A stretch of 58,481 nucleotides of DNA from a virus, in the IMG/VR virus record IMGVR_UViG_3300009034_000043, positions 1-58,481 of that record; one strand, given 5' to 3'. The notes under the pieces were generated by a model. It saw nothing but the letters and a program-made list of their open reading frames with translations. It made no database searches and had not been told where the DNA came from. The position numbers and the translations under genes are program-made. Shown here in pieces: positions 1,886 to 26,148 of the stretch (the first letter of the stretch is position 1; every line of letters begins with the position of its first letter).

Positions 1886-1886
1886 A

Positions 1887-3350
1887 ATGCGCCTGTTCCG
1901 AGAACTGAGTAAGGCAAAGCAAATAGAGCTGCTATTACGAGCACGTGACCCAGTATTTTTCGCTGAGAACAAATGGTTCCTCGGAAATGCTCTCCCTGTA
2001 GGACTATGGCCCAAACAGAGAGAGATACTAAGGCAATTTTACACCGGAGGGTACAATGAACTTTACTTGATGGCTGGAATGCGGTCTGGCAAAACATTCC
2101 TTGGCTCCGTCATGGGATGTTACGACTTGATGAGCCTTCTTACCCTCGGCGAAGAGCCGTGGCGCCACTACAACCTTTCACCAGTAACCCTCTTCATCAT
2201 CTGCGTCGCAACAGCAAAAGAGCAAGCAGAGGATACAATCTATGCTGCAATGCGGGACAAGATTGAACTGTCCCCATACTTCTTAAGCTTCTTTGAAGAC
2301 CCAGAGAATCCTGACATCTACTCATTTGAGATGCGCTTCTTCGATGGCGCTATCAAAGTAGAGGCTCAGAGCTCAAACTCAGCATCGGGTGCCGGTCGTA
2401 CCTCCAAGGCCGTTATCTTCGATGAGATGGCGAAATTTGACCAATCAAACACCAAACGGGGTGGCATGGAAGTGTACACGACGTTACGCCGCTCGACGCG
2501 TACACTTTGGCCTGATAGTCATGTTATCGCCATCTCATCACCGATGCACGTGTACGATACAATGGTGACGTTATGTGAACAGAAACAAGAAGACCCAAAG
2601 GCACTTGTCCTCAAGCATCCAACATGGGAGCTTAATCCTAATTTGCGTTACGAAGACTTCGCAACTGAAGAAGCTCGTGACCCTATTCTCTTCTGGAGGG
2701 ACTATGGAGCTGTCCCTGCAAGCGACATCGAAGTCTACTATCGCGAACCAGACATAATTACTTGGTATGAGCGAGGTAACTATTTTGAACCAAAGTCAGG
2801 TAACGACAAGTTCCTTGCACCAGGAAACTATGTATTGTCGGGTGACCCTGCTCTACGTCACGATGCATTTGGACTAGCATTAGGACACACAGAGCAGAAC
2901 AATGGGAAAATGATGTTCGTAGTGGACGGCATCACGAGATTCAAACCAACCTCAGAGAAAGAGGTAGACCCACTTTATGTTGAACAGGTAATTTTGAATA
3001 CAGTTGACAATGTCCCCGTATCCACGTTTATCTCAGATACGTGGAACTTCCCTGGCATACAACAGCGAGTGGAGAATAAGGGTATCACTGTCGTGAACCA
3101 AATTGTACGGAAACCACAACACGACAGAGTTAAGGAGTTGTTCTATGAGAAACAACTCGTCTGTCCGTACCATAAGGTATTGGACATGGAATTGAAACAA
3201 TTGTTGGTCAAGACGGGGACTAAAGTAGACCACCCAAAGGGCGGCAGTAAAGATATGGCTGACGCGTTAGCTAATTTGGTATGGCAACTCGACGAGCTAG
3301 CAACAGTTAGTGATGCACAGCCAGCAGTTATGGTTAAATTGAGAGCGTGA
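1887..3350 (+). CDS. Terminase large subunit (packaging ATPase-nuclease)
   Basis: Packages viral DNA into proheads and cuts it. The 487 residues fit the family. Walker A is GMRSGKT at residues 64-70, the Walker B region is AVIFDEMAKF near 178, and the C-terminal RNase H-like nuclease shows SGDPALRHDAFGLAL near 318 and the late acidic pair in KDMADALANL near 458. ATG 1887 follows the previous stop by one base and has an upstream GGAGGTGG-like site inside that gene. It ends in GTGA, overlapping the portal start. Confidence 0.93.
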   Translation: MRLFRELSKAKQIELLLRARDPVFFAENKWFLGNALPVGLWPKQREILRQFYTGGYNELYLMAGMRSGKTFLGSVMGCYDLMSLLTLGEEPWRHYNLSPVTLFIICVATAKEQAEDTIYAAMRDKIELSPYFLSFFEDPENPDIYSFEMRFFDGAIKVEAQSSNSASGAGRTSKAVIFDEMAKFDQSNTKRGGMEVYTTLRRSTRTLWPDSHVIAISSPMHVYDTMVTLCEQKQEDPKALVLKHPTWELNPNLRYEDFATEEARDPILFWRDYGAVPASDIEVYYREPDIITWYERGNYFEPKSGNDKFLAPGNYVLSGDPALRHDAFGLALGHTEQNNGKMMFVVDGITRFKPTSEKEVDPLYVEQVILNTVDNVPVSTFISDTWNFPGIQQRVENKGITVVNQIVRKPQHDRVKELFYEKQLVCPYHKVLDMELKQLLVKTGTKVDHPKGGSKDMADALANLVWQLDELATVSDAQPAVMVKLRA

Positions 3351-4930: not shown

Positions 4931-5112
4931 TGGAAGTATCGATATTCCCTCTAACATATTCGCAATGCATGCTTTGTGGTGTACCAAGAGAACTACGCTT
5001 CCTATTCCACATAATGGTAGACGTGGATAACGATGGGAACCCGAAATGGTTCATTGCATGCCGGATATGCGTAGATAAAGTAGCGGAGGAAAACAAAAGT
5101 GCCAGTACATAA
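4930..5112 (+). CDS. Small zinc-ribbon protein
   Basis: A 60-residue protein with CMLC near residue 14 and CRIC near 45, spaced as in a zinc ribbon. Its ATG overlaps the portal stop, so it is translationally coupled within the head operon. Function unknown; a structural or assembly helper is possible. Confidence 0.7.
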   Translation: MEVSIFPLTYSQCMLCGVPRELRFLFHIMVDVDNDGNPKWFIACRICVDKVAEENKSAST

Positions 5113-5251
5113 ATGTAGTAATGGAAAGTACAGGATTGGAAGTGGTCCCTGTAAATATGAGACAGAAGAATCCGCAGAGCGTGCATATAAAGGTTACCGT
5201 GCTAACATGATTAGCCCACTTAAATTCGTACCCGGAGGAGAACAAACATGA
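5099..5251 (+). CDS. Small protein with CSNGKYRIGSGPC motif
   Basis: A 50-residue gene starting at GTG 5099, with GGAGG eight bases upstream, and ending in ATGA that overlaps the prohead protease start. It holds HKCSNGKYRIGSGPCKY followed by a short helix rich in E, A, Y and K. From memory this small motif recurs next to prohead protease genes in many environmental tailed viruses; its function is not known to me. The two cysteines bracket a likely beta hairpin. Confidence 0.7.
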   Translation: MPVHKCSNGKYRIGSGPCKYETEESAERAYKGYRANMISPLKFVPGGEQT

Positions 5252-6390
5252 GTTGGAAAATGCCAAAAACAAATAGACCATGGGATGTTACAACAGACGG
5301 ATGGGAAGTCGCGGAAGACTACCAAGACCCAATGACTGGAACTGTGACAGTCAGAACCAAGATAGTTCCCGCACTACTCCAAGAAGCGAAACTGCGTCAA
5401 CCACTCCAAGTACTCTACTGGAAGAAAATTGACAACGTCCTCGCAGTTGACTGTGTGGGAATAGAAGCTGGAACATACACTGAGATGACTGGCAAGAAGG
5501 TTAGCTTCTCTGCTGATGTCATTCACAAACATGCCGAGACATTCCTCGGCAAATCTGTCTACATGAAACACTTCGGAAGAGGTGTAGGCAGCATTACGAG
5601 AGTAGGTCTATCTACACACGGGGCCCAATTCTACGTCATAATCTTTGACGAAGAAGCAATCGACTTCCTGGAAAAGGCACAGGAAGAAGAATATGGGTTT
5701 AGCATAGAAGTCGGCTTCGAAGCTGACTACTGCCCGAAGACTGAAATCTTTACGGTCACCGCCTTTCAAGGAGCTGGACTGGCCATTGTGCCAACCCCAG
5801 CCTGCCCTACGTGCAGGGTGATAAGCACAAAGAAAATAACAGGTGAGGTGAAACTACAAATGGGTGACGACAAACCGAATGACTCTCAGGAGCAAGAGAG
5901 TCAAGACAAGGGGACTGAACAGCCTACTGGATGGGATATTGCTAAGCTGCAAGAGATAGTCGATGAATCTGTCAAAGCCAAGCTGGCCGACATGGAACCG
6001 GAACCAGACCCGGAGAAACCAGAAGAGCCAGAAGGTGGACAAGATGCAACTGCACTGTCTGCTGCACTAGATACCATTCACGCGTTGCAAGAGCAAGTTA
6101 CAGCACTGACAGCTCGTTTCGAATCTCAGGATAAGCAGACTATTGAAGTAGCTGCACGAAAGGTTAGGGAGTTAGACGACACGTTTGACCCTGCAATGCT
6201 TTCGGGCACCAAGGAAGAGAAGATTGCGTTCATGGAACGCTATCAATCCGTCCTTGCAAAAGCTGCTGAAAAGGATGCTATCCCAGACGTTGCTCTTCTT
6301 ACTGACGAAGATGCTGCGAAACGACTTGAGCGTGTTGCACTAGCTTTCTTCGGACAAACTACCGAACAGCTCTTTAGCTTTGAGAAATGA
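5248..6390 (+). CDS. Prohead protease with C-terminal scaffold
   Basis: A 380-residue fusion of maturation protease (about 1-195) and scaffold (about 205-380). The protease half has the expected His in YMKHFGRG (near 105) and Ser in YGFSIEVGFE (near 151), consistent with a herpesvirus/HK97-type serine protease. The scaffold half is acidic and proline/glutamate-rich, then coiled-coil. ATG 5248 has GGAGG upstream. It lies between portal and capsid genes, the classical position. A second start at 5860 may make free scaffold. Confidence 0.85.
   Translation: MSWKMPKTNRPWDVTTDGWEVAEDYQDPMTGTVTVRTKIVPALLQEAKLRQPLQVLYWKKIDNVLAVDCVGIEAGTYTEMTGKKVSFSADVIHKHAETFLGKSVYMKHFGRGVGSITRVGLSTHGAQFYVIIFDEEAIDFLEKAQEEEYGFSIEVGFEADYCPKTEIFTVTAFQGAGLAIVPTPACPTCRVISTKKITGEVKLQMGDDKPNDSQEQESQDKGTEQPTGWDIAKLQEIVDESVKAKLADMEPEPDPEKPEEPEGGQDATALSAALDTIHALQEQVTALTARFESQDKQTIEVAARKVRELDDTFDPAMLSGTKEEKIAFMERYQSVLAKAAEKDAIPDVALLTDEDAAKRLERVALAFFGQTTEQLFSFEK
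5860..6390 (+). CDS. Nested scaffold protein (internal start)
   Basis: ATG 5860 is in frame with the protease and is preceded by GAGGTGA at suitable spacing (the segment 5841-5850 reads AGGTGAGGTG). Translation from it would give a 176-residue scaffold lacking the protease, as with nested scaffold genes such as Nu3 within C of phage lambda. The protein begins acidic and continues as a helical coiled coil with a second acidic stretch. The internal site is seen; its use is inferred. Confidence 0.5.
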   Translation: MGDDKPNDSQEQESQDKGTEQPTGWDIAKLQEIVDESVKAKLADMEPEPDPEKPEEPEGGQDATALSAALDTIHALQEQVTALTARFESQDKQTIEVAARKVRELDDTFDPAMLSGTKEEKIAFMERYQSVLAKAAEKDAIPDVALLTDEDAAKRLERVALAFFGQTTEQLFSFEK

Positions 6391-6833
6391 GTCTATCTGC
6401 TTACGGAATGGACATGATTTCACTGGAAGCTCAGAGTGCCGTTCCTTACCGTGGAATGATTGTGTTCCTCTCTGCAGCCGGTCAATGTGACCTTGCAGAA
6501 AGTACTACACCTGACATTCCAATCATCGGTGTGACTCTTCAGTCCACTGAAGACGTTGAGGGAGTTGCACAAGCTAACGTTGAAGTCGCAGTTATCAAGA
6601 AAGGGACTGGACACACTGTTGACGTACGCTTTGGTTCTACACACACAGTCGTGGCTGCTGGGGACTATATTGGTACCCACGCATCTGCAGCTGGTGAAGG
6701 CCAAGTTGCAACCTATACGACTACTTCTGCCGCAACATTACTAGCAAGTCTACAGACAATCATCGGCATCGCTCTTGAAGCACTTGCCGTTGACACAGCT
6801 GGATGGGCAAAAGTCATTTTGATGGCTCCATGA
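6387..6833 (+). CDS. Probable capsid decoration protein
   Basis: A 148-residue, small-residue-rich, beta-type protein between scaffold and major capsid genes. Composition and position match head-decoration/stabilisation proteins (the DUF2190-like group): an N-terminal segment with VPYRGMIVFLSAAGQ, and a C-terminal IGIALEALAVDTAGWAKVIL, typical of the small beta-barrel that binds capsid threefold sites. Its start overlaps the previous stop by four bases. Confidence 0.7.
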   Translation: MSLSAYGMDMISLEAQSAVPYRGMIVFLSAAGQCDLAESTTPDIPIIGVTLQSTEDVEGVAQANVEVAVIKKGTGHTVDVRFGSTHTVVAAGDYIGTHASAAGEGQVATYTTTSAATLLASLQTIIGIALEALAVDTAGWAKVILMAP

Positions 6834-7856: not shown

Positions 7857-8210
7857 GTGACGAAAGAACGTATCGAAGAAGCACGTGAGAAAAATCACAA
7901 AAGATACCCAGAGAACAATCTCCGTATGAAGGACATGTTCCACATAATCCTTGACGTACAGAACGAAACCCGAAACGGTCTGAGGGAGCTCAAACAGGAC
8001 ATTAAGATTGTACGCCGTGACGTGGAGGAAGTCAAGAGTAATGTGAAAACGTGCCAAAAGGATATAAAAGGGATGACAAGCCGTTTAGGAGTCACAGAGG
8101 GTACCGTGAACACTCTTAAATGGGTTATACCAACCATCCTCAGCATTATATCTGTTGCGGCGGTTGTACTTACAGTTATCATAATGTACGCACCTATCCT
8201 ACTACCATAA
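7857..8210 (+). CDS. Coiled-coil protein with C-terminal membrane span
   Basis: From GTG 7857 (GGAGTGA upstream) the protein is 117 residues: a charged coiled coil (about 5-85) and one hydrophobic C-terminal segment (about 88-115, VIPTILSIISVAAVVLTVII). An in-frame ATG at 7824 exists but lies inside the repeated leader element and has no site upstream. C-terminally anchored coiled coils are common beside virus lysis or entry genes; with the next membrane protein this may be such a pair. Function unknown. Confidence 0.65.
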   Translation: MTKERIEEAREKNHKRYPENNLRMKDMFHIILDVQNETRNGLRELKQDIKIVRRDVEEVKSNVKTCQKDIKGMTSRLGVTEGTVNTLKWVIPTILSIISVAAVVLTVIIMYAPILLP

Positions 8211-8225
8211 GGAGGTGTATGAAGC

Positions 8226-8567
8226 GTGATTGACCAAAACACAATTACCCTGATAGCAGTTGTACTTGGCGTAGTTCTCCGAACTGCCCTACCGTTTATC
8301 AAAAAGATAAACTCTGGTGAACAAATTACGTTCGATAGTATGTACATCAAAACAGCTCTTGCTGCTATAGTGACCTCATATAGTACCATGCTGGGGTTCG
8401 TGGCTGCTAATCCGCTGATAACTGATGTTATACTACTCGCACTAATAGCGTTCTTTGTAGGCTATGGCGAGAATGAGCTAGTCAACTTCGTGGTGTCAAT
8501 GTACGGGATGTGGCGAACAGGCCAACCTGACGAGACACCTGAACCCGAAACTGGAGGTGAAACGTAA
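8226..8567 (+). CDS. Holin-like membrane protein
   Basis: A 113-residue protein from GTG 8226, with AAGGAGGTG upstream. It has three hydrophobic segments (about 7-25, 42-62, 66-84) and an acidic, proline-rich cytosolic tail. Size and topology resemble holins but there is no lysin neighbour, so a virion membrane or lysis role is open. Confidence 0.55.
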   Translation: MIDQNTITLIAVVLGVVLRTALPFIKKINSGEQITFDSMYIKTALAAIVTSYSTMLGFVAANPLITDVILLALIAFFVGYGENELVNFVVSMYGMWRTGQPDETPEPETGGET

Positions 8568-9232
8568 TGGGAATTACAGCAGGAGATATTGACTACGAAC
8601 TCACAGGTGGTGCTGGTGAAACACAACCAGACGATTCGCTAGGTGGCGGAAAGTCTGGTACTAGTATTACTTCCGCAACCGATAACAACGTGTTCGATGA
8701 TGTCACGGGGGCAGAAGCTTCCGCCGGAGACACCGAATATCGTGCCATTGCAGTCATTAACGAAGACGCAACAGAAGATTGGACAAGTGTTGTCTTATGG
8801 ATTACCTCAGAGACAGGTTCACCGAGCACAGCAATCGACTTAGCTGGTGAAACACCTGCAGGCGACTCTATCCAGACAATCGCCGACGAATCAACCGCAC
8901 CGACCGGTGTGTCATTCACTCACCCAACAACCAAGGGTGCTGGAATCGACATGACTGGACAAGCAGAAGCTACTGGAACACTAGCAGCTGCTGGTGGTGT
9001 TGGCTCGTGGTGTGGAATCTGGTTACGACGAGTTGTATCCTCAGGTGCAACTGGATACTCTGCCGACTCTTGTACTATCCGCTGCGAGGGCGAAACTGTA
9101 GGGTGCCCACCGGGCGAACCTCCAGGACGCTACTTGGTTTGGGTTGACTACCGAATCGATATTGCGACTGGTCTCGCAACACGAATCGGAGGCGGATATG
9201 AGCCCATTGAAGTCTTTCCGGAGGCGGTCTGA
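8567..9232 (+). CDS. Virion structural protein, beta-rich
   Basis: A 221-residue protein rich in G, T, A, D and E with few lysines, like many capsid-fibre or decoration proteins. Glycine/alanine stretches around 130-145 precede SWCGIWLRR and a four-cysteine C-terminal area. It begins in TAATG overlap with the upstream gene. No family recognised; a virion surface role is inferred from composition and location. Confidence 0.55.
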   Translation: MGITAGDIDYELTGGAGETQPDDSLGGGKSGTSITSATDNNVFDDVTGAEASAGDTEYRAIAVINEDATEDWTSVVLWITSETGSPSTAIDLAGETPAGDSIQTIADESTAPTGVSFTHPTTKGAGIDMTGQAEATGTLAAAGGVGSWCGIWLRRVVSSGATGYSADSCTIRCEGETVGCPPGEPPGRYLVWVDYRIDIATGLATRIGGGYEPIEVFPEAV

Positions 9233-12361: not shown

Positions 12362-15265
12362 ATGGTAGACCAAGTACAAACTGGAATGACCCTAAACGAT
12401 ATAGTGGGCAATACAAGAGTCACGTTTCGCAACCCAAGAGGAACGAAAAACTACTATGTGTTTGGTAATTACTCAAATGGTTATAAGTACATCTACTATT
12501 GGTACAGTTCTGACGGCGATACTTGGAGTAGTAACCAGCAAGCTATGGGCACGTTCAACTCATATGATTACAATTCCATTGACGTAAGAATAATGGAGGA
12601 TAGTGGCAACTCACAACTTGTCGTTTGGATTATTGCCGAAACTAACAACGATATTAAGTATCGGCGTGGAACAATTGCAGATGCTAGTCAAACGATTACT
12701 TGGGATACTCTAGAAGTAGACGCGGTAGCCAACCTCGAAAACCAGATAACCAAGAATCACAGTTGTGCACTTACACGCACTGACAATGGACGATTAGTCA
12801 TAGCCTTTACTGAGGATGACAAACTTTCTGGTAAGTGTTATCGGTTTACTAAGATTATCGGGGCAGATGGCGATAGTGGAACACTTACATGGAGTAACAC
12901 AACTGTAATTTATAACTCCCTAACCGACTCGGATGGTGGGGGCACCAACAATGACGACAAAGACGATGTATATCCAGGTGCCGAGTGTTTCAGTTCGTCA
13001 TACCCAAACCGCGTATTGGTTTATTGTCGAGTACCCGACGCAGATGATGTCTACGATTATTCAGTGGACGTTTCAACGTGGGATTGGAACGGCTCGTCGA
13101 TGAGTAACCAAGCCAACGATTTTCATGATGGCACAAATTCTAGTTCCAACAACGCTGCAAACCTCAGCGGACTCGTTGACGAAGCAGATAAGGTGCACGT
13201 TGTTTGGGTCGAACAAGCCAGTGGCACCGAGCTTGCCCTGAGACACGAGGCGTATCCGACAGCTGGTGGACTAGGGACAGAGACTACCTATACGGTTTAT
13301 GGCCCTGCTTCAACGACCATAGGTGAGTGTACCTTAACTCTCGATGTCAAGACAGGAGCTGACGACCTTTACTGTTTTTATCACCGTGGCTCTGGCAACT
13401 ACATCTATTGGAAGAGTACACCATTAGACACGATTAGCTGGAGCGGTGAGGATTCTGTTGCCAGTGGTGGTGCCAACCCAACTAGTGTTAGTTCGTGGAA
13501 TCGTGATGTGGAAGGTTCACTACACCTTGCTTGGGAAGAGTCTGGGAACATTTACTATCATGAACATGGACTCGTACAACTCCTCTATAAAGACCTGGCA
13601 ATGCCCTATGATGTACGAGCGTATTTGAATAAAGACCTTGCAGTACAGTACGATGTGTTTGCACTCGTATATGACGACCTCGCAATCCAGTACGATATCT
13701 TCAACCTGGTCAACAAAGACTTAGCGGTACAGTATGACATATTTAATCTTCTGAGTAAGGACTTACAAATCCTCTATGACATCATAGCAGTCTCGCTTGT
13801 GAATAAAGACTTAGCAATTCAATATGATATTCTAAACTTGCTCTACAAAGACTTGGCAATGCCTTACGATATCTTCAATCTTCTGAATAAAGACCTACAG
13901 ATGTTGTACGACATATTCAATCTTGTGAATAAAGACTTAGCGATGCCATACGACTTGTTTGCGTTTGTGTATAAGGATTTAGCTATGCCTTACGATGTCT
14001 TTAACGTTATTGGCAAAGATATGGCAATGCCATGGGATGTATATGAGCTCTTAGCAAAAGACTTGGCTGTACAGTACGACCTGATAGCGTTCCTATACAA
14101 GGACCTCGAGATGTTATGGGACATAGGAGGGCTTATTGGTAAGAACTTGGAAATGCTTTATGACATATTCAACTTGCTATATAAGGACTTGGCGATGCCC
14201 TACGATATATTCAACCTTGTAAATAAGGATTTAGCCATGCCCTATGATATCTTTAGCTTACTAAATAAAGACTTGGCAATTCAATATGATTTAATAGCGT
14301 TCCTGTACAAAGACTTAGAAATGCCTTATGACATCTTTAATCTTTTGAGCAAGGACTTAGCAGTGCAATACGATATATTCAATCTGCTGAACAAAGATTT
14401 AGCAATCCAGTATGATGTTATAGCGTTCCTGTATAAGGACCTACAAATGCTCTGGGATATATCCTCAGGGTTTGTCAGTAAAGACCTTGCTATACAATAT
14501 GACGTTATAGCATTCCTTGGCAAGAACTTACAAGTAGTCTGGGATATCTTTAACACAGTAAGTAAAGACCTGGCTATGCCATGGGATATATTCGTACACA
14601 TTAACAAAGATTTAGCAATCCAATATGACCTGTACGAGCTACTCCAGAAAGACTTGGAGATGCTATGGGACATTGGGGGACTGGTAAGTAAGGACTTGGA
14701 GTTCCTCTGGGACGTCTTCAACCTAGTCAATAAAGACTTACAGATGCCTTACGATATCTTTAATTTACTGAACAAAGACCTTCAAATGCCTTGGGACGTA
14801 TTCGCACATGTGAGCAAAGACTTAGCCATGCCCTACGATATGTATAGCTATCTGTACAAGGATTTGGCTCTCCAGTACGATATATTCAATCTTATAAGCA
14901 AGGACCTTGCTATGCCGTATGACATTTATGTCCTCCTTGGAAAGAGTCTTGCAATACAATACGACATGCGTGCCTACATTGGAAAGGACTTACAAGCTCT
15001 GTGGGACCTTTATAATGTTGTAGGTAAGGATGTACAGATGCTGTGGGATATCATACTTGGTATAGGGAAAGACCTTGCACTACAGTGGGATATGAGAGCA
15101 TATGTGAGTAAGGACTTGCAATTACCCTATGACGTAATAGCGTTTATCAACAAAGACATGCAACTCGTCTGGACGGTTGCAGGAATACGGATTCCAGCGA
15201 GAGGTTTAATGCATGTTCGCCGACCAGGACGGTTCAAGGTTAGAAATGCGGGGGTGATGAGCTAA
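12362..15265 (+). CDS. Giant fibre protein with 14-residue repeats
   Basis: A 967-residue adhesin or fibre. Residues 1 to about 405 look like a beta-propeller (repeated blades with S-x-D-x-G-x-T/W-type turns, as in DGDTWSS). From residue 410 there are about 38 tandem units of 14 residues, consensus K-D-L-A-M-P-Y-D-I-F-N-L-V-N, with two units of 15-16. The last 30 residues are basic (IPARGLMHVRRPGRFKVR). The repeats likely form an extended beta-solenoid or trimeric shaft. It follows the glycan cassette and precedes a second repeat fibre. Confidence 0.75.
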   Translation: MVDQVQTGMTLNDIVGNTRVTFRNPRGTKNYYVFGNYSNGYKYIYYWYSSDGDTWSSNQQAMGTFNSYDYNSIDVRIMEDSGNSQLVVWIIAETNNDIKYRRGTIADASQTITWDTLEVDAVANLENQITKNHSCALTRTDNGRLVIAFTEDDKLSGKCYRFTKIIGADGDSGTLTWSNTTVIYNSLTDSDGGGTNNDDKDDVYPGAECFSSSYPNRVLVYCRVPDADDVYDYSVDVSTWDWNGSSMSNQANDFHDGTNSSSNNAANLSGLVDEADKVHVVWVEQASGTELALRHEAYPTAGGLGTETTYTVYGPASTTIGECTLTLDVKTGADDLYCFYHRGSGNYIYWKSTPLDTISWSGEDSVASGGANPTSVSSWNRDVEGSLHLAWEESGNIYYHEHGLVQLLYKDLAMPYDVRAYLNKDLAVQYDVFALVYDDLAIQYDIFNLVNKDLAVQYDIFNLLSKDLQILYDIIAVSLVNKDLAIQYDILNLLYKDLAMPYDIFNLLNKDLQMLYDIFNLVNKDLAMPYDLFAFVYKDLAMPYDVFNVIGKDMAMPWDVYELLAKDLAVQYDLIAFLYKDLEMLWDIGGLIGKNLEMLYDIFNLLYKDLAMPYDIFNLVNKDLAMPYDIFSLLNKDLAIQYDLIAFLYKDLEMPYDIFNLLSKDLAVQYDIFNLLNKDLAIQYDVIAFLYKDLQMLWDISSGFVSKDLAIQYDVIAFLGKNLQVVWDIFNTVSKDLAMPWDIFVHINKDLAIQYDLYELLQKDLEMLWDIGGLVSKDLEFLWDVFNLVNKDLQMPYDIFNLLNKDLQMPWDVFAHVSKDLAMPYDMYSYLYKDLALQYDIFNLISKDLAMPYDIYVLLGKSLAIQYDMRAYIGKDLQALWDLYNVVGKDVQMLWDIILGIGKDLALQWDMRAYVSKDLQLPYDVIAFINKDMQLVWTVAGIRIPARGLMHVRRPGRFKVRNAGVMS
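13589..15172 (+). repeat. 42-bp coding repeats, about 38 units
   Basis: In-frame 42-bp units encode the 14-residue repeat of the first fibre. The amino acid pattern is tightly kept while synonymous positions vary freely (for example KDL written as aaagacctg, aaggactta, aaagatttg), so the array is old and under protein-level selection rather than newly expanded. Confidence 0.9.
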
Positions 15266-16893
15266 TGGCGTTTCCAACGATAGCCGATACGAACACATCG
15301 ACTGATACAGCAGGGACCACTCATACGGTAAGTCTGCCCCCGAACATTTCGTCAGGTGATTTACTCCTCATCTTCTTTACCACGCAGGGAGATAACACTG
15401 TTACAAACTGGAACGGATTCACCGAGCTCGGCTCAGAGTCAGCAAGCGTCAAAGCATTCTTCGCGATTGCCTACAAGAACGCCAGTGGAAGCGAAGGAAG
15501 CACTATTGATATTACTACGAGTCAGAGCGAACCGAGTGCACACATTACTTATCGTATTACGGGATGGGATTCAACCCAAGCACCCGAACTCTCGACAGTA
15601 GCCGAAGCTAAGAGTTCAACTCCCAACCCAACAACTTGTACGCCGACTGGTGGAGCTAAAGACTACCTTTGGATTCACGCTGATGGCTGGGATGGTACCG
15701 ACACAGTTAGTGCTTGGAACGCTGACTTCACCCTATCCCGATTGAGCTCGATTGGAAGTGGTTCTGGTGGTGCAGTTTCTGGTCGGAATGAAAACGTGGC
15801 TTCGAAGGACCCCGGAAGTATAACTATTAGTGGCTCTACTGACTGGATTGCATGGACTGTTGCAGTACACCCTGTAAGTGCTCAATTAGTCAGTAAAGAC
15901 CTTGCTATGCCTTACGATGTATACGCTTACCTTAACAAGGACTTAGCAATGCCCTTTGACATATTCAACCTCTTACCCAAAGACCTGGCCATCCAGTATG
16001 ACATCTTCAACTTAGTCAGTGATGACCTAGCAATACAGTATGATATATTGAGTCTTGTCAACAAAGATTTGGCTGTACAATACGACGTCATAGCATTCGT
16101 GTATAAAGACCTTGCGATGCCTTGGGATATCTTCAACCTTGTGTACAAGGACTTACAAGCACTCTGGGATATCTTCAGTCTGGTCAGCAAAGATTTAGCA
16201 ATGCCGTATGATGTGTTTGCACTCCTCTACAAAGAATTAGAGATGTTATACGATATAGCAGGTCCGGTTGGTAAAGACCTACAGATGCTCTGGGATATCG
16301 GGGGGCTAGTTGGTAAGAGCTTAGAGATGCTCTACGACGTACTTAACTTGGTATACAAGGACTTGGCTGTACAATATGACATCTTCAACCTTCTAGGTAA
16401 AGACTTGGCTATGCCATACGATATCTACAATCTCCTGAACAAGGATTTACAAATGCTCTGGGATATTGCGTATTTCATTGGCAAGGACCTACAAATGCCC
16501 TATGATGTCTTTAACCTTGTAAGCAAGGACTTACAACTTCCATATGACATTTACAACTTGGTCAATAAAGACCTTCAACTCCCATACGATATATTTAATC
16601 TTATCAATAAGGACTTGCAAATGAACTACGACATCTTTGTACTCTTAAGTAAAGACTTACAGATGTTGTATGATATAACCGGACTCCTGGGCAAAGACTT
16701 ACAAATAGTCTGGGCTATCACAGGAGCAGGAGCTGTCTTTAAAGACCTACAAATGATTTGGGAGGTCTTTGAAACTCCAATACATTGGAGAGGTGTGTTT
16801 AGTGTACGCAAACCAAATGTATTTGATATTAGAGAACCACAAAACAAATTCGGAGTACGAAAACATGAGAAAATGGAGGTGCATCCTCAATGA
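15265..16893 (+). CDS. Second repeat fibre protein
   Basis: A 542-residue protein with a different N-terminal domain (about 1-205, a beta-sandwich rich in T, S, G with YRITGWDSTQAPE and DWIAWTVAVHPV, as in lectin-like virion domains) and about 21 of the same 14-residue units from residue 211. The C-terminal 30 residues (WRGVFSVRKPNVFDIR) echo the end of the preceding fibre, suggesting a shared assembly or attachment end. Its ATG overlaps the previous stop (TAATG). Probably a second host-recognition head on the same shaft. Confidence 0.72.
   Translation: MAFPTIADTNTSTDTAGTTHTVSLPPNISSGDLLLIFFTTQGDNTVTNWNGFTELGSESASVKAFFAIAYKNASGSEGSTIDITTSQSEPSAHITYRITGWDSTQAPELSTVAEAKSSTPNPTTCTPTGGAKDYLWIHADGWDGTDTVSAWNADFTLSRLSSIGSGSGGAVSGRNENVASKDPGSITISGSTDWIAWTVAVHPVSAQLVSKDLAMPYDVYAYLNKDLAMPFDIFNLLPKDLAIQYDIFNLVSDDLAIQYDILSLVNKDLAVQYDVIAFVYKDLAMPWDIFNLVYKDLQALWDIFSLVSKDLAMPYDVFALLYKELEMLYDIAGPVGKDLQMLWDIGGLVGKSLEMLYDVLNLVYKDLAVQYDIFNLLGKDLAMPYDIYNLLNKDLQMLWDIAYFIGKDLQMPYDVFNLVSKDLQLPYDIYNLVNKDLQLPYDIFNLINKDLQMNYDIFVLLSKDLQMLYDITGLLGKDLQIVWAITGAGAVFKDLQMIWEVFETPIHWRGVFSVRKPNVFDIREPQNKFGVRKHEKMEVHPQ
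15895..16761 (+). repeat. 42-bp coding repeats, about 21 units
   Basis: The same repeat family as at 13589-15172, with consensus KDLQMPYDIFNLVN-like units. Glutamine after KDL is commoner toward the C-terminus in both proteins. Confidence 0.9.
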
Positions 16894-18580: not shown

Positions 18581-19519
18581 ATGGGAAAACGATATATTGG
18601 TATTGCTGAAGAGACAACTTACGGAACATACGTAGCACCAACGAATTACATTGACGTCTTTAGTGAGAGCTTCTCAGCTACTAACCAGCCAACTTACATC
18701 GATGGTGTAGGAATGCGAGCACATCGTCGCTTCGTCCCTGGAATGTACGGTCTGACTGGTGGCTTTGAATGTGTGGGCGACATTGTAACCATCGGATGGC
18801 TTCTGAAGATGATTACAGGAAGTGTCAGCACTTCTGGTGCATCAGACCCATATGAACATACGTTCGAAGAAACGCAAGACATCTACAGTTACAGTATTTG
18901 CATTGGACGTGAAGTTGACGAACGAAAGATTACCTCTTTCGGTGCAAGCACGCTCCGGTTAGAATGGAGTGGAAGCGAGCCAATGACTGCTGCAGTTGAA
19001 GGTGTTGCACAGAAGGATACTACTGCTGCAATTGGAACACCCACTTGGGATGATGAACCGGTTATCGGTAGTGTACACTGTACTTTCGAATGGGACGACG
19101 CCGCAATCAACGTTGAATCAGGACGACTAGAAATCTCTAACAATCTGGCAGAGGATGCGTGGAGACTTGGTACTCGATTCCAGACTGGGTTATACCCACA
19201 ACGGTTCGAAGTTGACTTTAGTCTCGACCTAGCATTCGAAAACCTCGACCTATGGAAGGACTTCTGGGGTGCTGCAGCTGCAACTGAACCACAAGCCACA
19301 CTTGCTACACACAAGCTAGAGTTCTTAATGGATACCGGTGTAACTAATCGAACGCTAGATATCGCGTTAGCACGAGTTGTGATTGACTCGGGTAACGTAC
19401 CAATGAGTGGACGAGACCGTCTCATCCAAACAATTGAAGGCAAGGCTATCTACGACTCAACAGCAACCAATGTCATTGAAGCCGTATTAACCAACGGCGA
19501 AGCAACGTACGGAGCTTAG
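18581..19519 (+). CDS. Major tail tube protein
   Basis: A 312-residue tail tube protein. The N-terminus GIAEETTYGTYVAPTNYIDV, the central GGFECVGDIVTIGWLLKMI and the repeated two-domain beta layout are typical of siphoviral tube subunits with duplicated tube domain. It precedes the tail chaperone pair and tape measure. GAGGTGAAATG lies just upstream of ATG 18581. Confidence 0.88.
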   Translation: MGKRYIGIAEETTYGTYVAPTNYIDVFSESFSATNQPTYIDGVGMRAHRRFVPGMYGLTGGFECVGDIVTIGWLLKMITGSVSTSGASDPYEHTFEETQDIYSYSICIGREVDERKITSFGASTLRLEWSGSEPMTAAVEGVAQKDTTAAIGTPTWDDEPVIGSVHCTFEWDDAAINVESGRLEISNNLAEDAWRLGTRFQTGLYPQRFEVDFSLDLAFENLDLWKDFWGAAAATEPQATLATHKLEFLMDTGVTNRTLDIALARVVIDSGNVPMSGRDRLIQTIEGKAIYDSTATNVIEAVLTNGEATYGA

Positions 19520-19938: not shown

Positions 19939-20149
19939 TTTCCTTGGAATACAGGATAGGCTTGAAGCAGCAATCTTCGATGTGTCTGCTGCTAGCGAAA
20001 TTGCCATAAGGGAGGGTGAAGCCTTAGAGCAACTCGATGCATCGCCCTCCTCTAAGTCCCCCTCTAAGTCTACCCGCCGTAGACCGTCGAGCACAAGACA
20101 ATCGGTCTTGAAACAATTTGAAAAAAAGAAAAGGAGCAAAAATAAGTGA
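19853..20149 (+). CDS. Tail chaperone extension (T-like frame)
   Basis: This frame lies +1 to the G-like gene and overlaps it by 86 bases. Its useful part reads PSDFLGIQDRLEAAIFDVSAASE, the core expected of chaperone T domains, then a serine/lysine-rich tail. It is probably expressed by a +1 shift at CCC (19930-19932) to CCA near the zero-frame stop; an internal ATG at 19916 is the alternative. The stop overlaps the tape-measure GTG start. Confidence 0.6.
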   Translation: MVSSPHFVKTDLGLGIAQTAKMFGTRPSDFLGIQDRLEAAIFDVSAASEIAIREGEALEQLDASPSSKSPSKSTRRRPSSTRQSVLKQFEKKKRSKNK

Positions 20150-22842
20150 GTCAATTACCACCAGTACGTTTTAGTGTAAGTGTAAACGTACGTCAAGCAG
20201 TACAGAACCTAAATCAGGTACAGAAGGGCATAACCGCTTTAGCCCGGTCAGCTGGTGGTGCTACTGTTCATATAGGCAGAACTGCAACGGCATTCAGTAC
20301 TTTAAATAGTAAGATGAGCCCTGCGTTTCAAGCTCTACAAGCAGGAGCAGCATTACCTACCGGTTTTGCGAGACGACTCGGCATTCTCAACTACCGTCTA
20401 AATGAAGTCAGCCGTACTATAGGTCGGCGTGTAGCACCGCATTTCAAAGCTCTGGGTGAAGGATTTACCAACTTGGGTACAAGAGTATCAGCACTACAAA
20501 CGCCACTTCGGAACATTGGTAAACAGTTCAGCCAGATAGGAAGGATAACTGCATATATGGGTCGTTCGATTTACTGGGTTGGACGTAACCTTATGTGGAT
20601 GTCCACTATTGCTCTTGGTGCTATTGGTGCAGTGTTAAATATCTATCGTGAATTTGAGTACGAACTAGCGGGTGTAACTGCAGCACTTAACATACAGACA
20701 AAAGATAGTGCTGCAGCTGCGCAAGCTACCGAACAACTCAAAGACGCGATAACTACTGCTGCCAAACAGTACGGCTATGCAACACAAGAAGTAGCACAGA
20801 TGGCTCGTTTGATGGTGACTGCAGGGTTCAGTGCTGAACAATCACAAGTACTGATTGGATTGTCAGCACAGTTCGCTCGTGCAAACATGCTCAACCTGGC
20901 AGATACAGCTGAAGTACTTACTTTGTTCTTCAACAACTTCGGTGCAACAGTTAATACCATTGGTGGATTTCTTGACAAACTGACAGTAGCCGGTGTTTAC
21001 TCGCAAGCTACACTACAGCAATTGTCGCGAGGAATGGGCTTCTTCAGTGGTGCAGCCGAAATGTACGGCATGCGCATTGAGGAAGCTCTTGCACTGCTCA
21101 TACAGCTTACCAACCAAGGTGTAAGTGCAACTACAGCTGGACGTCGTTTGACTTCAGTCTTCGAAGTACTTGCTAGTAAGTCACACCAACTCGGGTTCGC
21201 AATCTACGACGTATACGGTAACTTTTTACCGATGACCACCATATTGAAGAACTTGAAGACGAAACTACAAGGCTTTTCGAGTGAAGCAGCACGGAGTGCA
21301 TACATGACCAACTTGTTCGGGCAAATGCAGACAGAAATCATTGGAAAGCTATTAGACTTAGAAGATGCAACTGATGCAGATATTGATAAGCTCAACGAGC
21401 TTGTTGGTGTACTGGAAGAAGCAGAAGGAGCAACAGAGACAGCAGCCGACATTATGGCTGGCACGCTTACTGTACAGTTGGATAGGTTAAAAGCTGCTTT
21501 AACGGACCTCGCAAATATATTTGGTTCGGTTGTCGTACCTATACTTGTTGAATATATAGAAAAGCTACGAGAGTTCCTCGAACAAGAAGAAGTGAAGCAG
21601 TTCATTGAAGAGTTCGGTCGTTCCTTCATTGAAGCAATGGTCGAAACATTTAAGGCTGCAATACCTCTTGTACGCCGCATGCTCGACTTCCTTGTGAAGC
21701 TTGTAAGAGGCTTGGGAGCCTTCTTCCCTGGACTTGCTGATGGTGCTTCAAGTGCAGAAATACTTGGCAAGATACTTGGCAAGTTGCTATCAGTAATGCT
21801 TATGCTCGGGCCAGCAATGATGGGTATCGGCCAGATTCTACAAATGGTATCACTACCGTTTATGGGTCTCGGTCAAATCTTCGGTGTACTATCAAGATTC
21901 GCACCAATACTAGGTGGTGCTATTAAAGGTCTTGGTGGTATCTTCTCCAACATGTTCAGCATCGTTTCGGGTGGAGGAGGTATCATGAGTGCACTGAGTT
22001 CGGGCATCACGGGAATCTTCACTGCAATTGGTCCTTTGATTCCAATCATAGCATTCCTCGTAACAGCAATTATTGGTTTGATTCAATGGTTCCACAAGTT
22101 AGACTTCATGCAGGAATCAGTAGCTCTGACTATGGAAGCATGGGCACCAACGATAGATACTATCATGGGAGGGTTAGGAATACTCCTCAACCTCTTCAAT
22201 GATATAGCTCTACACTTGGGTACATTCCTCATCCCATTGTTTGAATGGTTTAACTTCCAACTACAGTTGTTGTCGCCAGTAATAAACTTCTTTGCCACAA
22301 TTGTAAATGCGTTAGGTACAGGGTTCCGAATACTACTACGAGCACTATGGCCAGTTCGGTTCGTCATGATACAAATCGGACGGGTTGTACACTTCCTATC
22401 GATAGTGTTCAAACCACTGATTGATATCATCAATGCATTCTTCGGTGCAGTCAACCACAACTTGGGAATCATCAACGAGAACCTCGATTCAATGGAAGAC
22501 CCGGCATTAGCTCTTGCTAATGCAATTGGACAACCGCCAAGCACAGGGTTGGTTCTCTCGTTTGAGGGACTAGCGGGTGCAGTAGACGAATATGTGAAAG
22601 CTTCGCGGACGATGGCTCGTGTTGGATTACCTGCAATGCAAGCTGCACAAGGTATGGCCGAGCAAGGTGTAGGTGCACCGCTTGGTGTGGGAGCTGGTGT
22701 TGCTGGTGGACGTGGTCTAACCATTGACAACGTTGAGGTATCAGTGTTCGTAGAAGAAATGGTCGACTCAGCAACAGTCGGCGAAGAAATATTCGCCGGA
22801 CTGATTAGAACTCTTCGTGAGGAGGGAATCTTCGAAGAATGA
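20146..22842 (+). CDS. Tape measure protein
   Basis: An 898-residue TP901-type tape measure. Helical N-terminus (1-130), the conserved TP901 core (about 165-330, with ATQEVAQMARLMVTAGFSAEQ and related segments), predicted membrane segments around 545-680, and a C-terminal helical region. By the usual 0.15 nm per residue it predicts a tail near 130 nm. Start is GTG 20146 overlapping the preceding TGA. A non-contractile tail is inferred since no sheath gene is seen. Confidence 0.92.
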   Translation: MSQLPPVRFSVSVNVRQAVQNLNQVQKGITALARSAGGATVHIGRTATAFSTLNSKMSPAFQALQAGAALPTGFARRLGILNYRLNEVSRTIGRRVAPHFKALGEGFTNLGTRVSALQTPLRNIGKQFSQIGRITAYMGRSIYWVGRNLMWMSTIALGAIGAVLNIYREFEYELAGVTAALNIQTKDSAAAAQATEQLKDAITTAAKQYGYATQEVAQMARLMVTAGFSAEQSQVLIGLSAQFARANMLNLADTAEVLTLFFNNFGATVNTIGGFLDKLTVAGVYSQATLQQLSRGMGFFSGAAEMYGMRIEEALALLIQLTNQGVSATTAGRRLTSVFEVLASKSHQLGFAIYDVYGNFLPMTTILKNLKTKLQGFSSEAARSAYMTNLFGQMQTEIIGKLLDLEDATDADIDKLNELVGVLEEAEGATETAADIMAGTLTVQLDRLKAALTDLANIFGSVVVPILVEYIEKLREFLEQEEVKQFIEEFGRSFIEAMVETFKAAIPLVRRMLDFLVKLVRGLGAFFPGLADGASSAEILGKILGKLLSVMLMLGPAMMGIGQILQMVSLPFMGLGQIFGVLSRFAPILGGAIKGLGGIFSNMFSIVSGGGGIMSALSSGITGIFTAIGPLIPIIAFLVTAIIGLIQWFHKLDFMQESVALTMEAWAPTIDTIMGGLGILLNLFNDIALHLGTFLIPLFEWFNFQLQLLSPVINFFATIVNALGTGFRILLRALWPVRFVMIQIGRVVHFLSIVFKPLIDIINAFFGAVNHNLGIINENLDSMEDPALALANAIGQPPSTGLVLSFEGLAGAVDEYVKASRTMARVGLPAMQAAQGMAEQGVGAPLGVGAGVAGGRGLTIDNVEVSVFVEEMVDSATVGEEIFAGLIRTLREEGIFEE

Positions 22843-23765
22843 CAATAAAACTAGATAATGTGGATGTACTCTTCAACTATCCAGGCTACAAATACCGACC
22901 GAAGATACTAAGCTTGAAATACACAAAGCAAGTAACTGAGGCTCCTGGGTCCTTCAGGATAGCTATAGAGGATACAGTAGAGTATCGCCGAATCAATCAA
23001 ATGACCGATGTACAGGTTTTTGTTGATGACGAGCTCGAGTTTCGTGGCATCATTGAGGATAAGGAGTACGATGAAGACTCCGGAATGATTAAGTTCTCCG
23101 GACGTGACTATGGTTACAGACTGATGCGAAAGATACCGGGATGGGACTCTTCAAATGACATGGAGAGCAGTGTTGCGATTGGACAGATAATCGACGCGTT
23201 TGTGGAGGATATCACATATAGTAACTTTGTTGAGACTTCCAACACAACACTCCGATGGGTGTTCGGTCGAGGCAAGACTGTTTGGGAGTGTATCAAGAGC
23301 ATCGCAGATGCAACATACAAGACGATTGATAGTGTCAATTGGTATGGGTTTGATTTCTGGGTAGACCAGAACTTAGAGTTACACTTCCACCCGCGGAACT
23401 ACTATCAGTTGCCGATACGGTTTACATTCGAGAAACCTGGCGGTATAATTAAGAGCAAGAGAACAGAAACTAGTATCCCAATACGGAACGAAATCAAACT
23501 ACTGTCAGACAATCCGTCACTCATCCCCCACGATGGTGATGCATTCACCGCTGCGGGTGAAGAGACAAGATGGGAATGGGTAACTTGTAGTACATGTGAA
23601 AGTACTTGTCAAGGTTGTGTGCAAATTAACTGCGAAACAGCTTGTCAGATACACTGTCAGACTGGTTGCGAAGCCGTGTGTCAATCAGGATGTGAAGTGA
23701 GCTGCCAGTCAGGATGCCAAGTATCCTGTGAATGGTGTTGGGAGAGTGGTCCCGTAGAACTGTAG
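22839..23765 (+). CDS. Tail hub protein with 14-cysteine C-terminal array
   Basis: A 308-residue baseplate hub. Residues 1-240 show the hub pattern: DVQVFVDDELEFRGIIEDKEYD (about 48-70), FSGRDYGYRLM (near 88), and a second domain with VWECIKSIADAT and IPIRNEIKLL. From residue 250 it changes to 14 cysteines spaced by three residues, mostly C-[EQ]-x-x, ending SCEWCWESG. The array is unrelated to normal hub ends. The start overlaps the tape-measure stop. A second protein with the same array and a radical SAM enzyme follow. Confidence 0.78.
   Translation: MTIKLDNVDVLFNYPGYKYRPKILSLKYTKQVTEAPGSFRIAIEDTVEYRRINQMTDVQVFVDDELEFRGIIEDKEYDEDSGMIKFSGRDYGYRLMRKIPGWDSSNDMESSVAIGQIIDAFVEDITYSNFVETSNTTLRWVFGRGKTVWECIKSIADATYKTIDSVNWYGFDFWVDQNLELHFHPRNYYQLPIRFTFEKPGGIIKSKRTETSIPIRNEIKLLSDNPSLIPHDGDAFTAAGEETRWEWVTCSTCESTCQGCVQINCETACQIHCQTGCEAVCQSGCEVSCQSGCQVSCEWCWESGPVEL
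23586..23737 (+). repeat. CxxxC coding array 1
   Basis: Fourteen cysteine codons in about 50 codons, nine consecutive spacings of exactly three intervening residues. Most units begin with tgt followed by a caa/cag/gaa codon; the repeat is recognisable at DNA level as 12-bp units but synonymous sites vary. Confidence 0.9.
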
Positions 23766-23774
23766 GTGATTATC

Positions 23775-24803
23775 ATGACAGCAATAAGTCCATCAATCAG
23801 TAGGCGATTTGGATTACACTCAATGTACATTGAAGTAACTTCTATTGCCGGTAATAGTTCCTATCACTGGTGGTATCCGAAGGATTACGAGACTGCCAGT
23901 GGTGCCGGACTCAAACTTGACCTCAGCGGATATCACGAGGTTCAATTCTACTTCCGAACAACGTGTAATACTACTAACCTTGACGAATTACGTATACAGT
24001 TGTACACCACACCGAACAAGTATGCATACCACGAACTTGCCATGCCAACCAAATTCTGGCACGTAGAGAAGTTCTCAATTGAGGACATGACTGAAGTGAA
24101 CACTCCTGACTGGACGAATATCAATGCAATTGGGATACATCTCGACACTAAAGCAACGCCCCCTTCAACAAACTTTGGTATGTGGATTGACGGATTACGT
24201 ATCATCCGTCATCAGATACTTGGTGAGGCAGAAGATGTACCGAGTCAACAAACTTACGGTACACGTCCATTGTACCTTGTTGATAAGGGATTTCAATTCC
24301 TTGGTCAACCGCAAGCAATGGTAGAACAAGTGTTGAGAGAGTTAAAGGACGAACAAGTTACAGTTCGACAAAGCTTGCCACTCAACTTTGAGGTCATACC
24401 GGGCTACCTTGCAGAGACATGGAACGGTACAGACTTCGAAGCACTACGTCTCCAGAAGGTTGAGTATAACTTTGACAAAGGCGAAATGGAAATCCTGATG
24501 GGTAGGAAGTCGTCCGAGCTCAAAGATATTCTCAAGTCATTCGGCTATGATATCAGCCAAATCGGACAATATGGTGGAGATGTTACGGGAGTTACACCAA
24601 CTGAAGAACCAGTAATCGGTTGTGGGACTACTTGCGAGCTTACCTGTCAATCGGGGTGTATGTCTGCTTGTCAGACCGAATGTGAATTGAATTGTCAAAC
24701 ACAGTGTGAGATTGCCTGTCAGACTGCATGTGAGCTTGGGTGCGAAACACAATGTATGCAACAATGCCAGTGGTGTTGGGAAGCAGCAGGAGGTCCAGGA
24801 TAG
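23775..24803 (+). CDS. Second hub/tail-tip protein with cysteine array
   Basis: ATG 23775 has GGTGAT upstream; a GTG at 23766 directly after the previous stop is in frame. The product is about 342 residues: a lectin-like beta-sandwich (about 10-140, with FGMWIDGLRIIRH), a hub-completion domain (about 165-285, LVDKGFQFLGQPQAMVEQ and FDKGEMEILMGRKSS), then an array of 14 cysteines spaced by three residues ending QCQWCWEAAGG. It looks like the remainder of a hub protein split from the preceding gene, each part ending in the same kind of tail. Confidence 0.72.
   Translation: MTAISPSISRRFGLHSMYIEVTSIAGNSSYHWWYPKDYETASGAGLKLDLSGYHEVQFYFRTTCNTTNLDELRIQLYTTPNKYAYHELAMPTKFWHVEKFSIEDMTEVNTPDWTNINAIGIHLDTKATPPSTNFGMWIDGLRIIRHQILGEAEDVPSQQTYGTRPLYLVDKGFQFLGQPQAMVEQVLRELKDEQVTVRQSLPLNFEVIPGYLAETWNGTDFEALRLQKVEYNFDKGEMEILMGRKSSELKDILKSFGYDISQIGQYGGDVTGVTPTEEPVIGCGTTCELTCQSGCMSACQTECELNCQTQCEIACQTACELGCETQCMQQCQWCWEAAGGPG
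24621..24776 (+). repeat. CxxxC coding array 2
   Basis: Fourteen cysteine codons, twelve consecutive C-x-x-x spacings, ending CQWCW. Count, spacing and the C-[EQ]-W-C-W ending match array 1 although the intervening residues differ. Confidence 0.9.
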
Positions 24804-25865
24804 ATGTGGGAACGTCCGTCTAATATGAACATGCTTGGGTTCTATATCAACAAGAGTTGCAATCTACGTTGCAAGTATTGTTTCATAGGAAAGAACGAAG
24901 TAACGCAACCTGAAGGTGTTCTTCCTCTCGATGTGTACAAGAAGATTGTCGACTGGTTTAGTGTTGGCGACTTCTATATGCAACCAATGCTTGCATTCTG
25001 CGGTGAGGAGCCCACTCTTCATTGGGGCTCAGTTGTGAGCTTCATGGAGTATGCTCGTGAAAAGGTCCCCAAGGTAAACCTCGCAATGACCACAAATGGA
25101 ACACTATTGACGGAAGACATGGTTAAGTTCTTAGCAACGATGAACAGTGAGTTATTGATTAGCTGTGATGGGGTGGAGCACAACAATTACAGGGTATTCC
25201 CTGGTGGGGGTCCTTCACTTGATAGAGTAGTAGAGAGCATCAAGTTGGCAGTAGAATATAAGCTTAGGCTGACCGTCCTTTGTACTATGATTCCTGGTGC
25301 TGTTTCAAGGTTATCGGAGACTGTCGAGTTCTTCCATGGCATTGGTGTAAGACAAGTTGCACTGAATAAGGTTGTAGAAGGCTACATTGACTATACTGAG
25401 CAGGATTATATCGATTTAACTCGGGAGAGATGGAAAGCAGCACAATATGCCGACGATGTTGGTTTACAATTGGTGTTCATGGAGAAAACTTGTAAGGATG
25501 TACAACAGCAGAACCGTGCTGCGCGAGAGAGATACACTTGTGGTGCATGCTACGGTTCAATTGGTGTTGATATGCATGGAGACTATTATCCCTGTCACAG
25601 GTTGATATGGTATCCAGAATACAAGATTGGCGACTACAAGATAGGTGTAGACCCAGAGAAGAGAGAGTTCTGGCGCTCACTCGATTATGAGCAGTGCCAT
25701 GGGTGTACAGTCGAGGGCTGTTCTGGTTGTTATGTTGAGAACCTTGGTTGTGAAGGTGACCTACTAAAACTTCCACTTGCACACTGTACCATGGAAAGGA
25801 TAAGGAACGATGTGGGCAAGATGCTTGCCCGCAGGAGAGGTTTACTACCAAGTATTGACATTTAG
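24804..25865 (+). CDS. Radical SAM/SPASM peptide-modifying enzyme
   Basis: A 353-residue enzyme with the radical SAM cluster CNLRCKYC (Cys19, Cys23, Cys26), the SAM-binding region around AFCGEEPTLHW, and a C-terminal SPASM-type domain (about 240-340) with CYGSIGVDMHGDYYPC (CX10GX4C), CHGCTVEGCSGC and two later cysteines, room for two auxiliary clusters. SPASM enzymes modify peptides or proteins, for example forming thioether bonds or formylglycine. ATG 24804 follows the second cysteine-array stop directly, so the arrays are the obvious substrates. Confidence 0.9.
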   Translation: MWERPSNMNMLGFYINKSCNLRCKYCFIGKNEVTQPEGVLPLDVYKKIVDWFSVGDFYMQPMLAFCGEEPTLHWGSVVSFMEYAREKVPKVNLAMTTNGTLLTEDMVKFLATMNSELLISCDGVEHNNYRVFPGGGPSLDRVVESIKLAVEYKLRLTVLCTMIPGAVSRLSETVEFFHGIGVRQVALNKVVEGYIDYTEQDYIDLTRERWKAAQYADDVGLQLVFMEKTCKDVQQQNRAARERYTCGACYGSIGVDMHGDYYPCHRLIWYPEYKIGDYKIGVDPEKREFWRSLDYEQCHGCTVEGCSGCYVENLGCEGDLLKLPLAHCTMERIRNDVGKMLARRRGLLPSIDI

Positions 25866-25875
25866 AGGTGATAGG

Positions 25876-26148
25876 ATGTCGTTAGATGATGTACAAGCAA
25901 AGTACGATACTATTAAAACAAAGAATGCAGAAATTACCACACTGGAAACAGACAAGCAAACATATATGGCTACTAATAAAGTTGAGTTCGAAGCTGCCAT
26001 AGCAACAGTCAGTACTCATCGTACTGCTGTAGCCAACTATGACAGCCAGATAGAGGTTAGGAAACACGAGATTGAAATACTTGTCGGAGAAATCGAACAG
26101 ATATTCAAAGACATGGTGAAAGCTCTGAGAGGTGTGATAGAAGAATGA
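25876..26148 (+). CDS. Small coiled-coil protein
   Basis: ATG 25876 has GAGGTGAT upstream; the longer frame from 25810 would overlap the radical SAM gene. The 90-residue product is almost wholly helical with heptad-like spacing and no cysteines. Translationally coupled to the large adhesin by ATGA overlap. It may be a chaperone or connector for the tail-tip proteins. Confidence 0.65.
   Translation: MSLDDVQAKYDTIKTKNAEITTLETDKQTYMATNKVEFEAAIATVSTHRTAVANYDSQIEVRKHEIEILVGEIEQIFKDMVKALRGVIEE

Follow-up and report, generated by a model that had tools for sequence, protein, structure and literature searches.

Why would a virus carry a gene for a radical S-adenosylmethionine (SAM)/SPASM enzyme directly behind two genes whose products end in long, regular cysteine arrays? 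The question is raised by positions 22839-25865 of IMG/VR record IMGVR_UViG_3300009034_000043, a viral DNA of 58,481 nucleotides (nt) that we refer to, over its whole length, as the window. We consider it likely that the gene encodes a maturase of the ranthipeptide type that cross-links the CXXX units of the two putative tail proteins encoded upstream of it. The parts of this reading are of unequal strength: the linkage of arrays and enzymes across viruses and the co-segregation of array type with enzyme clade make it very probable that the enzyme acts on the arrays, and a ranthipeptide-type thioether is the best chemical guess for the product, one that would take up most, though not all, of that confidence. 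The elements concerned are as follows.

22839-23765, plus strand: open reading frame 1 (ORF1), candidate tail hub- or tip-like protein with a C-terminal CXXX array, 308 amino acids (aa), named from the reading frame, its sequence, weak family matches, and gene order
23586-23738, plus strand: array 1, ending CEWC-W, 14 cysteines, 9 of them in strict CXXX spacing
23775-24803, plus strand: ORF2, candidate tail protein with a C-terminal CXXX array, 342 aa (sequence; phrog_9983)
24621-24776, plus strand: array 2, ending CQWC-W, 14 cysteines, 13 of them in strict CXXX spacing; phrog_6085 matches over the array (E value, 0.012)
24804-25865, plus strand: radical SAM/SPASM enzyme, 353 aa (PF04055, 68 bits)
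24858-24881, plus strand: core CX3CX2C (C19, C23, and C26), assigned by alignment to the radical SAM [4Fe-4S] cluster
25539-25787, plus strand: SPASM region with seven predicted cluster cysteines (C246, C264, C298, C301, C306, C309, and C328), from alignment to SCIFF maturases

The initial annotation of this locus placed the 14 C-terminal cysteines of both proteins at a strict three-residue spacing. The number stands for each protein, but the spacing is strict for 13 of the 14 in ORF2, which amounts to 12 consecutive CXXX steps, and for only 9 of the 14 in ORF1 (8 steps), where the remaining spacings are 2 or 4 residues. The shared C-[EQ]-W-C-W end is present as described, reading CEWCWE in ORF1 and CQWCWE in ORF2. 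These patterns do not arise by chance, since 20,000 shuffles of each protein gave no CXXX run longer than 4 steps and cysteine makes up 0.7% of 15 other proteins of the virus. Cysteine codons in the arrays are mixed (TGT, 10 to 11; TGC, 3 to 4) and at the nucleotide level array 2 shows no more than a weak repeat of 24 nt (3 copies, 70% match), which places the regularity mainly at the protein level. Neither array contains aspartate, and the residue at i+4 from a cysteine is again cysteine. BLAST searches with the array sequences returned no match, probably owing to low-complexity masking, and a search of IMG/VR for arrays ending in C[EQ]WCW gave ten pattern matches with no relevant protein among them.

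Read from its conserved residues, the gene that follows encodes a complete radical SAM/SPASM enzyme, as had been proposed from its CX3CX2C motif and SPASM cysteines. The protein scores 68.3 bits against Pfam PF04055 (Radical_SAM; cut-off, 29.5), and all ten cluster cysteines, three in the core and seven in the SPASM region, align with those of the SCIFF maturases fetched here, the middle SPASM motif being CX2CX4CX2C in the window enzyme versus CX2CX5CX3C. Among NCBIfam models, those of peptide maturases match best (PapB, nif11, SCIFF, and CXXX-repeat target), with PapB (NF047865) at the top (E value, 3e-43; 148 bits against a cut-off of 340); the SCIFF maturase model TIGR03974 gives 97 bits (cut-off, 425), the QhpD model 83 bits (cut-off, 453), and the CXXX-repeat maturase model TIGR04115 80 bits (cut-off, 350). 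Cyclophane and sactipeptide models match too, more weakly. The nearest solved chain is 5WGG, the SCIFF maturase CteB (E value, 4e-23). Ranthipeptide-type maturases (the PapB, SCIFF, and QhpD group) are the strongest matches both for the window enzyme and for most of the array loci tested elsewhere, and two viral enzymes come near the TIGR04115 cut-off of 350 bits, with 341 (L074) and 301 (L376).

To place this arrangement among other viruses, IMG/VR was scanned with a generic eightfold CXXX pattern and with a C[EQ]-restricted pattern, and the viral figures below hold among the matches listed. Genuine, varied, in-frame arrays are present in 27 viral contigs, 4 of which were retained by inspection or added below the written diversity rule; most generic matches were out of frame or of low complexity (L036 and L075 were inspected) and were used as controls. 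A PF04055 match occurs in 22 of the 27 array contigs (20 over the cut-off), compared with 4 of 50 control contigs whose arrays are low-complexity look-alikes, those four being among the long ones, at 80 to 217 kb (Fisher P = 8e-11). The rule-only set, without hand curation, gives 22 of 28 against 2 of 46 (P = 2e-11). The enzyme is always on the strand of the array (22/22), at a gap of 0 to 6.6 kb and often overlapping, and in contigs of at least 30 kb the gap is at most 2.2 kb in 14 of 15. Among the five array contigs lacking a PF04055 match, three stop within the array gene; a fourth (L223) stops 119 bases from the array, on the side where the similar contig L169 has its enzyme; and in G023 the protein encoded upstream contains SCSGGCVYC, TNG, ISHDG, and SPASM-like cysteines and, with a weak profile match, is read as a divergent radical SAM protein. 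Thus, a radical SAM/SPASM gene lies near every array that can be judged, at 23 of 23 viral contigs and at 6 of 6 loci in bacterial genome contigs, one of them a planctomycete, where the enzyme is adjacent. This is the opposite of what the initial annotation had named as damaging to its own proposal, namely arrays that usually lack a neighboring SPASM gene. Several array loci contain two to four radical SAM genes, and in one viral contig (L395, also G005; 629-6481) four consecutive radical SAM genes surround a small array protein.

Two of the array-linked radical SAM proteins have unusual architectures. In L384 (1169-3721, minus strand; 851 aa), the SPASM domain seems to be interrupted by an intein-like insert (CFTGDTGVKMVDG), and in L392 (7343-9643, minus strand; 767 aa), a partial Hint/intein match lies ahead of the radical SAM domain.

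Two kinds of array can be distinguished, C-[EQ]-[TS]-[GAST], to which those of the window belong, and C-[ST]-G-[STG], and the kind of array follows the enzyme phylogeny. When the enzymes are placed in a maximum-likelihood tree, one branch (support, 99/98) separates the six non-[EQ] arrays from the rest, a split present in every bootstrap tree and equaled in 0 of 500 shuffles; the window enzyme groups with those of L381 and L125 (97/94). Together with the linkage, this co-segregation supports the earlier proposal that tail proteins are matured by chemistry resembling that of ribosomally synthesized and posttranslationally modified peptides (RiPPs). The search for CxxxC-array tail proteins with an adjacent SPASM gene, also proposed at that time, finds that the pairing recurs and that some array proteins contain tail, baseplate, or carbohydrate-binding domains: Phage_Tail_Tip in L342 (over the cut-off), Tail_P2_I in L234 (over) and L165 (just under), the lectin domain Laminin_G_3 in L122, and F5/8 C in L074 (under), with fibre-like matches in array proteins as well. 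The arrays of L189 and L205 sit among tape-measure and baseplate genes.

The same pairing exists in cultured phages. The enzyme of Cronobacter phage CR5 (L057) is present in 62 phage records, nearly all of jumbo phages, including SPN3US, Salmonella phage STsAS, and the Erwinia phages Phobos, Kwan, EarlPhillipIV, and phiEaH2. In all seven cultured phages examined, two tandem array genes adjoin two radical SAM genes, and, where checked, the annotation either omits these array genes or has calls that overlap them in a different frame or on the other strand. Their position in SPN3US is as follows.

10417-11230 of L406 (Salmonella phage SPN3US), minus strand: two conserved CXXX-array genes, at 143416-143817 and 143831-144229 of record JN641803, minus strand, with a single Lys/Arg in each array part; same region in L402, L403, L404, L405, L407, and L408

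In codon alignments, third-position changes dominate (SPN3US versus STsAS, for example, 14/8/68 at positions 1/2/3) and all cysteines are kept in 9 of the 10 pairs compared, so the array genes of jumbo phages are real and constrained and, by this codon-level measure, are under strong purifying selection. An annotation-based mass spectrometry database would presumably have missed their products. The neighbors of these genes in SPN3US, gp168-170, are virion baseplate/tail-fibre candidates (PMC5694885).

What the enzyme might make can be approached from the systems it most resembles. The SCIFF/thermocellin systems (CteA-CteB and Tte1186a-Tte1186) supply its nearest solved homologue and aligned cluster cysteines, and the SCIFF core CGECQTSCQSACKTSC in the fetched loci is itself a short CXXX run with C-[QEK]-[TS]-[SA] units as in the window arrays. 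SCIFF, however, is a short leader-core peptide of Clostridia with six cysteines in 45 residues, whereas the window arrays are longer and form the C termini of putative tail proteins. According to a review (PMC8172795), the SCIFF bond is a C-gamma thioether between Cys32 and either Thr34 or Thr37, and in the SCIFF peptide of L370 Cys32-Lys-Thr34-Ser corresponds to one CXXX unit. Freyrasin (PapA-PapB) is similar in its repeated cysteine spacing and multiple cross-links per substrate, and the PapB model is the best one for many array-linked viral enzymes. The NCBIfam CXXX-repeat target system (TIGR04115/TIGR04119) also has predicted targets with CXXX repeats, and the candidate substrate genes ORF1 and ORF2 lie directly upstream of the window enzyme; the latter nevertheless reaches only the 80 bits given above, and its C[EQ]-type arrays are on the opposite side of the tree from the C[ST]G type. 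QhpD, the SPASM maturase of quinohaemoprotein amine dehydrogenase, which joins Cys to Asp/Glu (PMC8172795, PMC11002830), is a precedent in that it cross-links not a small peptide but a larger protein; its target, however, is one subunit of a cellular enzyme, with few bonds, no CXXX array, and no virus.

By these analogies, the reduced core [4Fe-4S] cluster would cleave SAM to a 5'-deoxyadenosyl radical, which would abstract a hydrogen from a side-chain carbon of one CXXX unit. With guidance from a SPASM auxiliary cluster, the sulfur of the cysteine would then bond to that carbon, and the reaction would recur along the array, with 2 Da lost for every ranthipeptide-type thioether formed. As acceptor, the second X of CXXX, often Thr or Ser, would be likeliest, a suggestion that follows from Cys32 and Thr34 of SCIFF lying in one such unit. 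The stapled end that results on a tail hub or tip protein would be rigid, nonreducible, and resistant to proteases, perhaps serving envelope passage or stability; plausibly, stapled arrays form part of the virion, where they would harden the tail tip.

The enzyme may instead modify the arrays by another radical SAM reaction, such as formation of a sactionine (S-C-alpha), a carbon-carbon cyclophane at the conserved tryptophans of C[EQ]WCW, epimerization, or some other backbone or side-chain change. SPASM maturases do make many products; the conserved C[EQ]WCW end of both proteins, the weaker cyclophane and sactipeptide matches, and the loci with two to four radical SAM genes would all fit such a reaction. 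We nonetheless think it unlikely, given that ranthipeptide-type maturases are the strongest matches in the window and at most array loci tested and that the invariant element is cysteine, not an aromatic residue. Less probable again is a diffusible or delivered peptide, with arrays cut from the tail proteins or acting as an anti-competitor RiPP. Related enzymes act on short secreted peptides, and at 2219-2743 of L371 a short CXXX-repeat peptide with a signal-like, twin-arginine translocation (Tat)-like N terminus adjoins a radical SAM gene, in a record that is labeled phage but is probably bacterial; at the window and most other loci, however, the array belongs to a large protein of the tail or baseplate, and no protease or exporter gene was seen beside the array in the window.

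The initial annotation took binding of metal ions or iron-sulfur clusters by free array cysteines, with the radical SAM gene as an unrelated neighbor, for the main alternative. Dense cysteines can bind metals, and CXXXC occurs in cluster and metal sites, but with a radical SAM/SPASM gene linked in every assessable case, array type co-segregating with enzyme clade, and virion proteins meeting oxygen outside the cell, this explanation has become much less likely and is now highly improbable. Just as improbable, in view of the same linkage and co-segregation and of an enzyme family made up of peptide maturases, not metabolic enzymes, are disulfide-rich structural domains beside an auxiliary metabolic gene, even though phages are known to carry radical SAM genes, and a metabolic reading has been given to these (PMC2853527). 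That reading was given in 2010 to the radical SAM genes of Campylobacter phages CP220/CPt10, which were noted as unusual (PMC2853527); the genes are phage encoded like that of the window, but the 2010 account does not connect them with cysteine arrays or with the maturation of virions. CPt10_1891 (L378, 2050-3654), a protein of ~535 aa with 35 cysteines in CDCNYCT repeats, lies ~2.3 kb from a radical SAM gene and is possibly another array type.

Ranthipeptide-type cross-linking of tail proteins thus remains the reading we favor, and several observations count against it. The window enzyme scores under every NCBIfam equivalog cut-off and sits on a long branch of the tree. Since it aligns only from CteB residue 91 onward, with 18 residues ahead of the first cluster cysteine, it has no N-terminal RiPP recognition element (RRE) domain, a further difference from SCIFF maturases that leaves substrate recognition unexplained. 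PapB bonds need Cys-X3-Asp/Glu (PMC8172795), a motif absent from the window arrays with their cysteine at i+4. Family matches are weak for both candidate substrates (for ORF1, YQBQ at an E value of 4e-4, below the Pfam cut-off, and the tail protein family phrog_400 at 4e-4; for ORF2, the tail family phrog_9983 at 1e-6), single-sequence AlphaFold models of both are useless (predicted local distance difference test score, 37), and IMG/VR searches with the enzyme, ORF1, and the terminase found no close relatives of the window virus. Finally, an 11-kb fragment (L103) has an in-frame cysteine repeat and no radical SAM gene. The cysteine repeats there, CNPY and CYNT, are those of a tail-like protein (7942-9015, minus strand) and may form an array of another type that is not paired with an enzyme.

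Virion proteins mature by proteolysis, and some capsids by self-catalyzed cross-links. In the open-access literature searched, there was no description of a radical SAM enzyme that matures a virion protein, in line with the initial annotation, which knew of none; the kind of enzyme, one of radical SAM peptide maturation, is already known, and it is the class of substrate that is new. From the recurrence of the array-enzyme pairing across many viruses that are not related to one another, it appears that viruses chemically staple tail proteins of their own. We lean, with some reserve, toward the broader view of a general, hitherto unrecognized maturation pathway common to bacterial and archaeal tailed viruses, in which virus-encoded radical SAM/SPASM enzymes would install many thioethers along CXXX arrays of tail and baseplate proteins and so yield stapled virion parts; on this view, the substrates in cultured jumbo phages were overlooked as unannotated or called in the wrong frame. 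If this is correct, viruses would have a new means of hardening their delivery apparatus, namely a radical enzyme dedicated to the stapling of tail proteins. Many puzzling radical SAM genes of phages, to which a metabolic role is often given, would be accounted for, RiPP-type chemistry would no longer be confined to small peptides but would include structural protein domains, and a class of conserved viral genes overlooked by annotation would be exposed. With this gene pair also present in phages that can be cultured (SPN3US, CR5, and the Erwinia jumbo phages), the proposal is directly testable now.

In the window, ORF1, ORF2, and the enzyme gene are consecutive, with no gene between them, and lie directly 3' of the tape-measure gene. 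The surrounding genes are as follows.

18581-19519, plus strand: tail tube protein, upstream (PF18906; E value, 3e-21)
20146-22842, plus strand: tail tape-measure protein, upstream (PF10145, E value, 5e-25; TIGR01760, 119 bits)
25876-26148, plus strand: small protein of ~90 aa directly 3' of the enzyme gene, coiled-coil-like by eye from its sequence

This position behind the tape-measure and tail-tube genes, together with the weak family matches, tentatively suggests that ORF1 and ORF2 are tail proteins. The most likely start of ORF2 is the ATG at 23775, preceded by AGGTGA, which replaces a GTG at 23766; the ribosome site of the enzyme gene, GGAGGT, is within the 3' end of ORF2. All three genes share one frame, separated by TAG, and a read-through fusion of them was considered and rejected. 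TAG is the stop of 7 of 27 genes here, and with an ordinary stop and a start signal for each gene, no read-through is needed.

The virus itself is probably an archaeal tailed virus, since its family-B DNA polymerase is nearest to those of haloarchaeal tailed viruses. Farther upstream, two consecutive proteins of 967 and 542 aa (12362-16893) consist mostly of degenerate KDLAMPYDIFNLL-type repeats with a period of 42 nt and are apparently repeat-built fibre or structural proteins. On the minus strand, between 38324 and 47096, genes for GTP cyclohydrolase I (FolE), PTPS (QueD), and a short radical SAM protein (QueE-like) suggest a 7-deazaguanine pathway, and a PAPS-reductase-family gene is located at 46428-47096, also on the minus strand.

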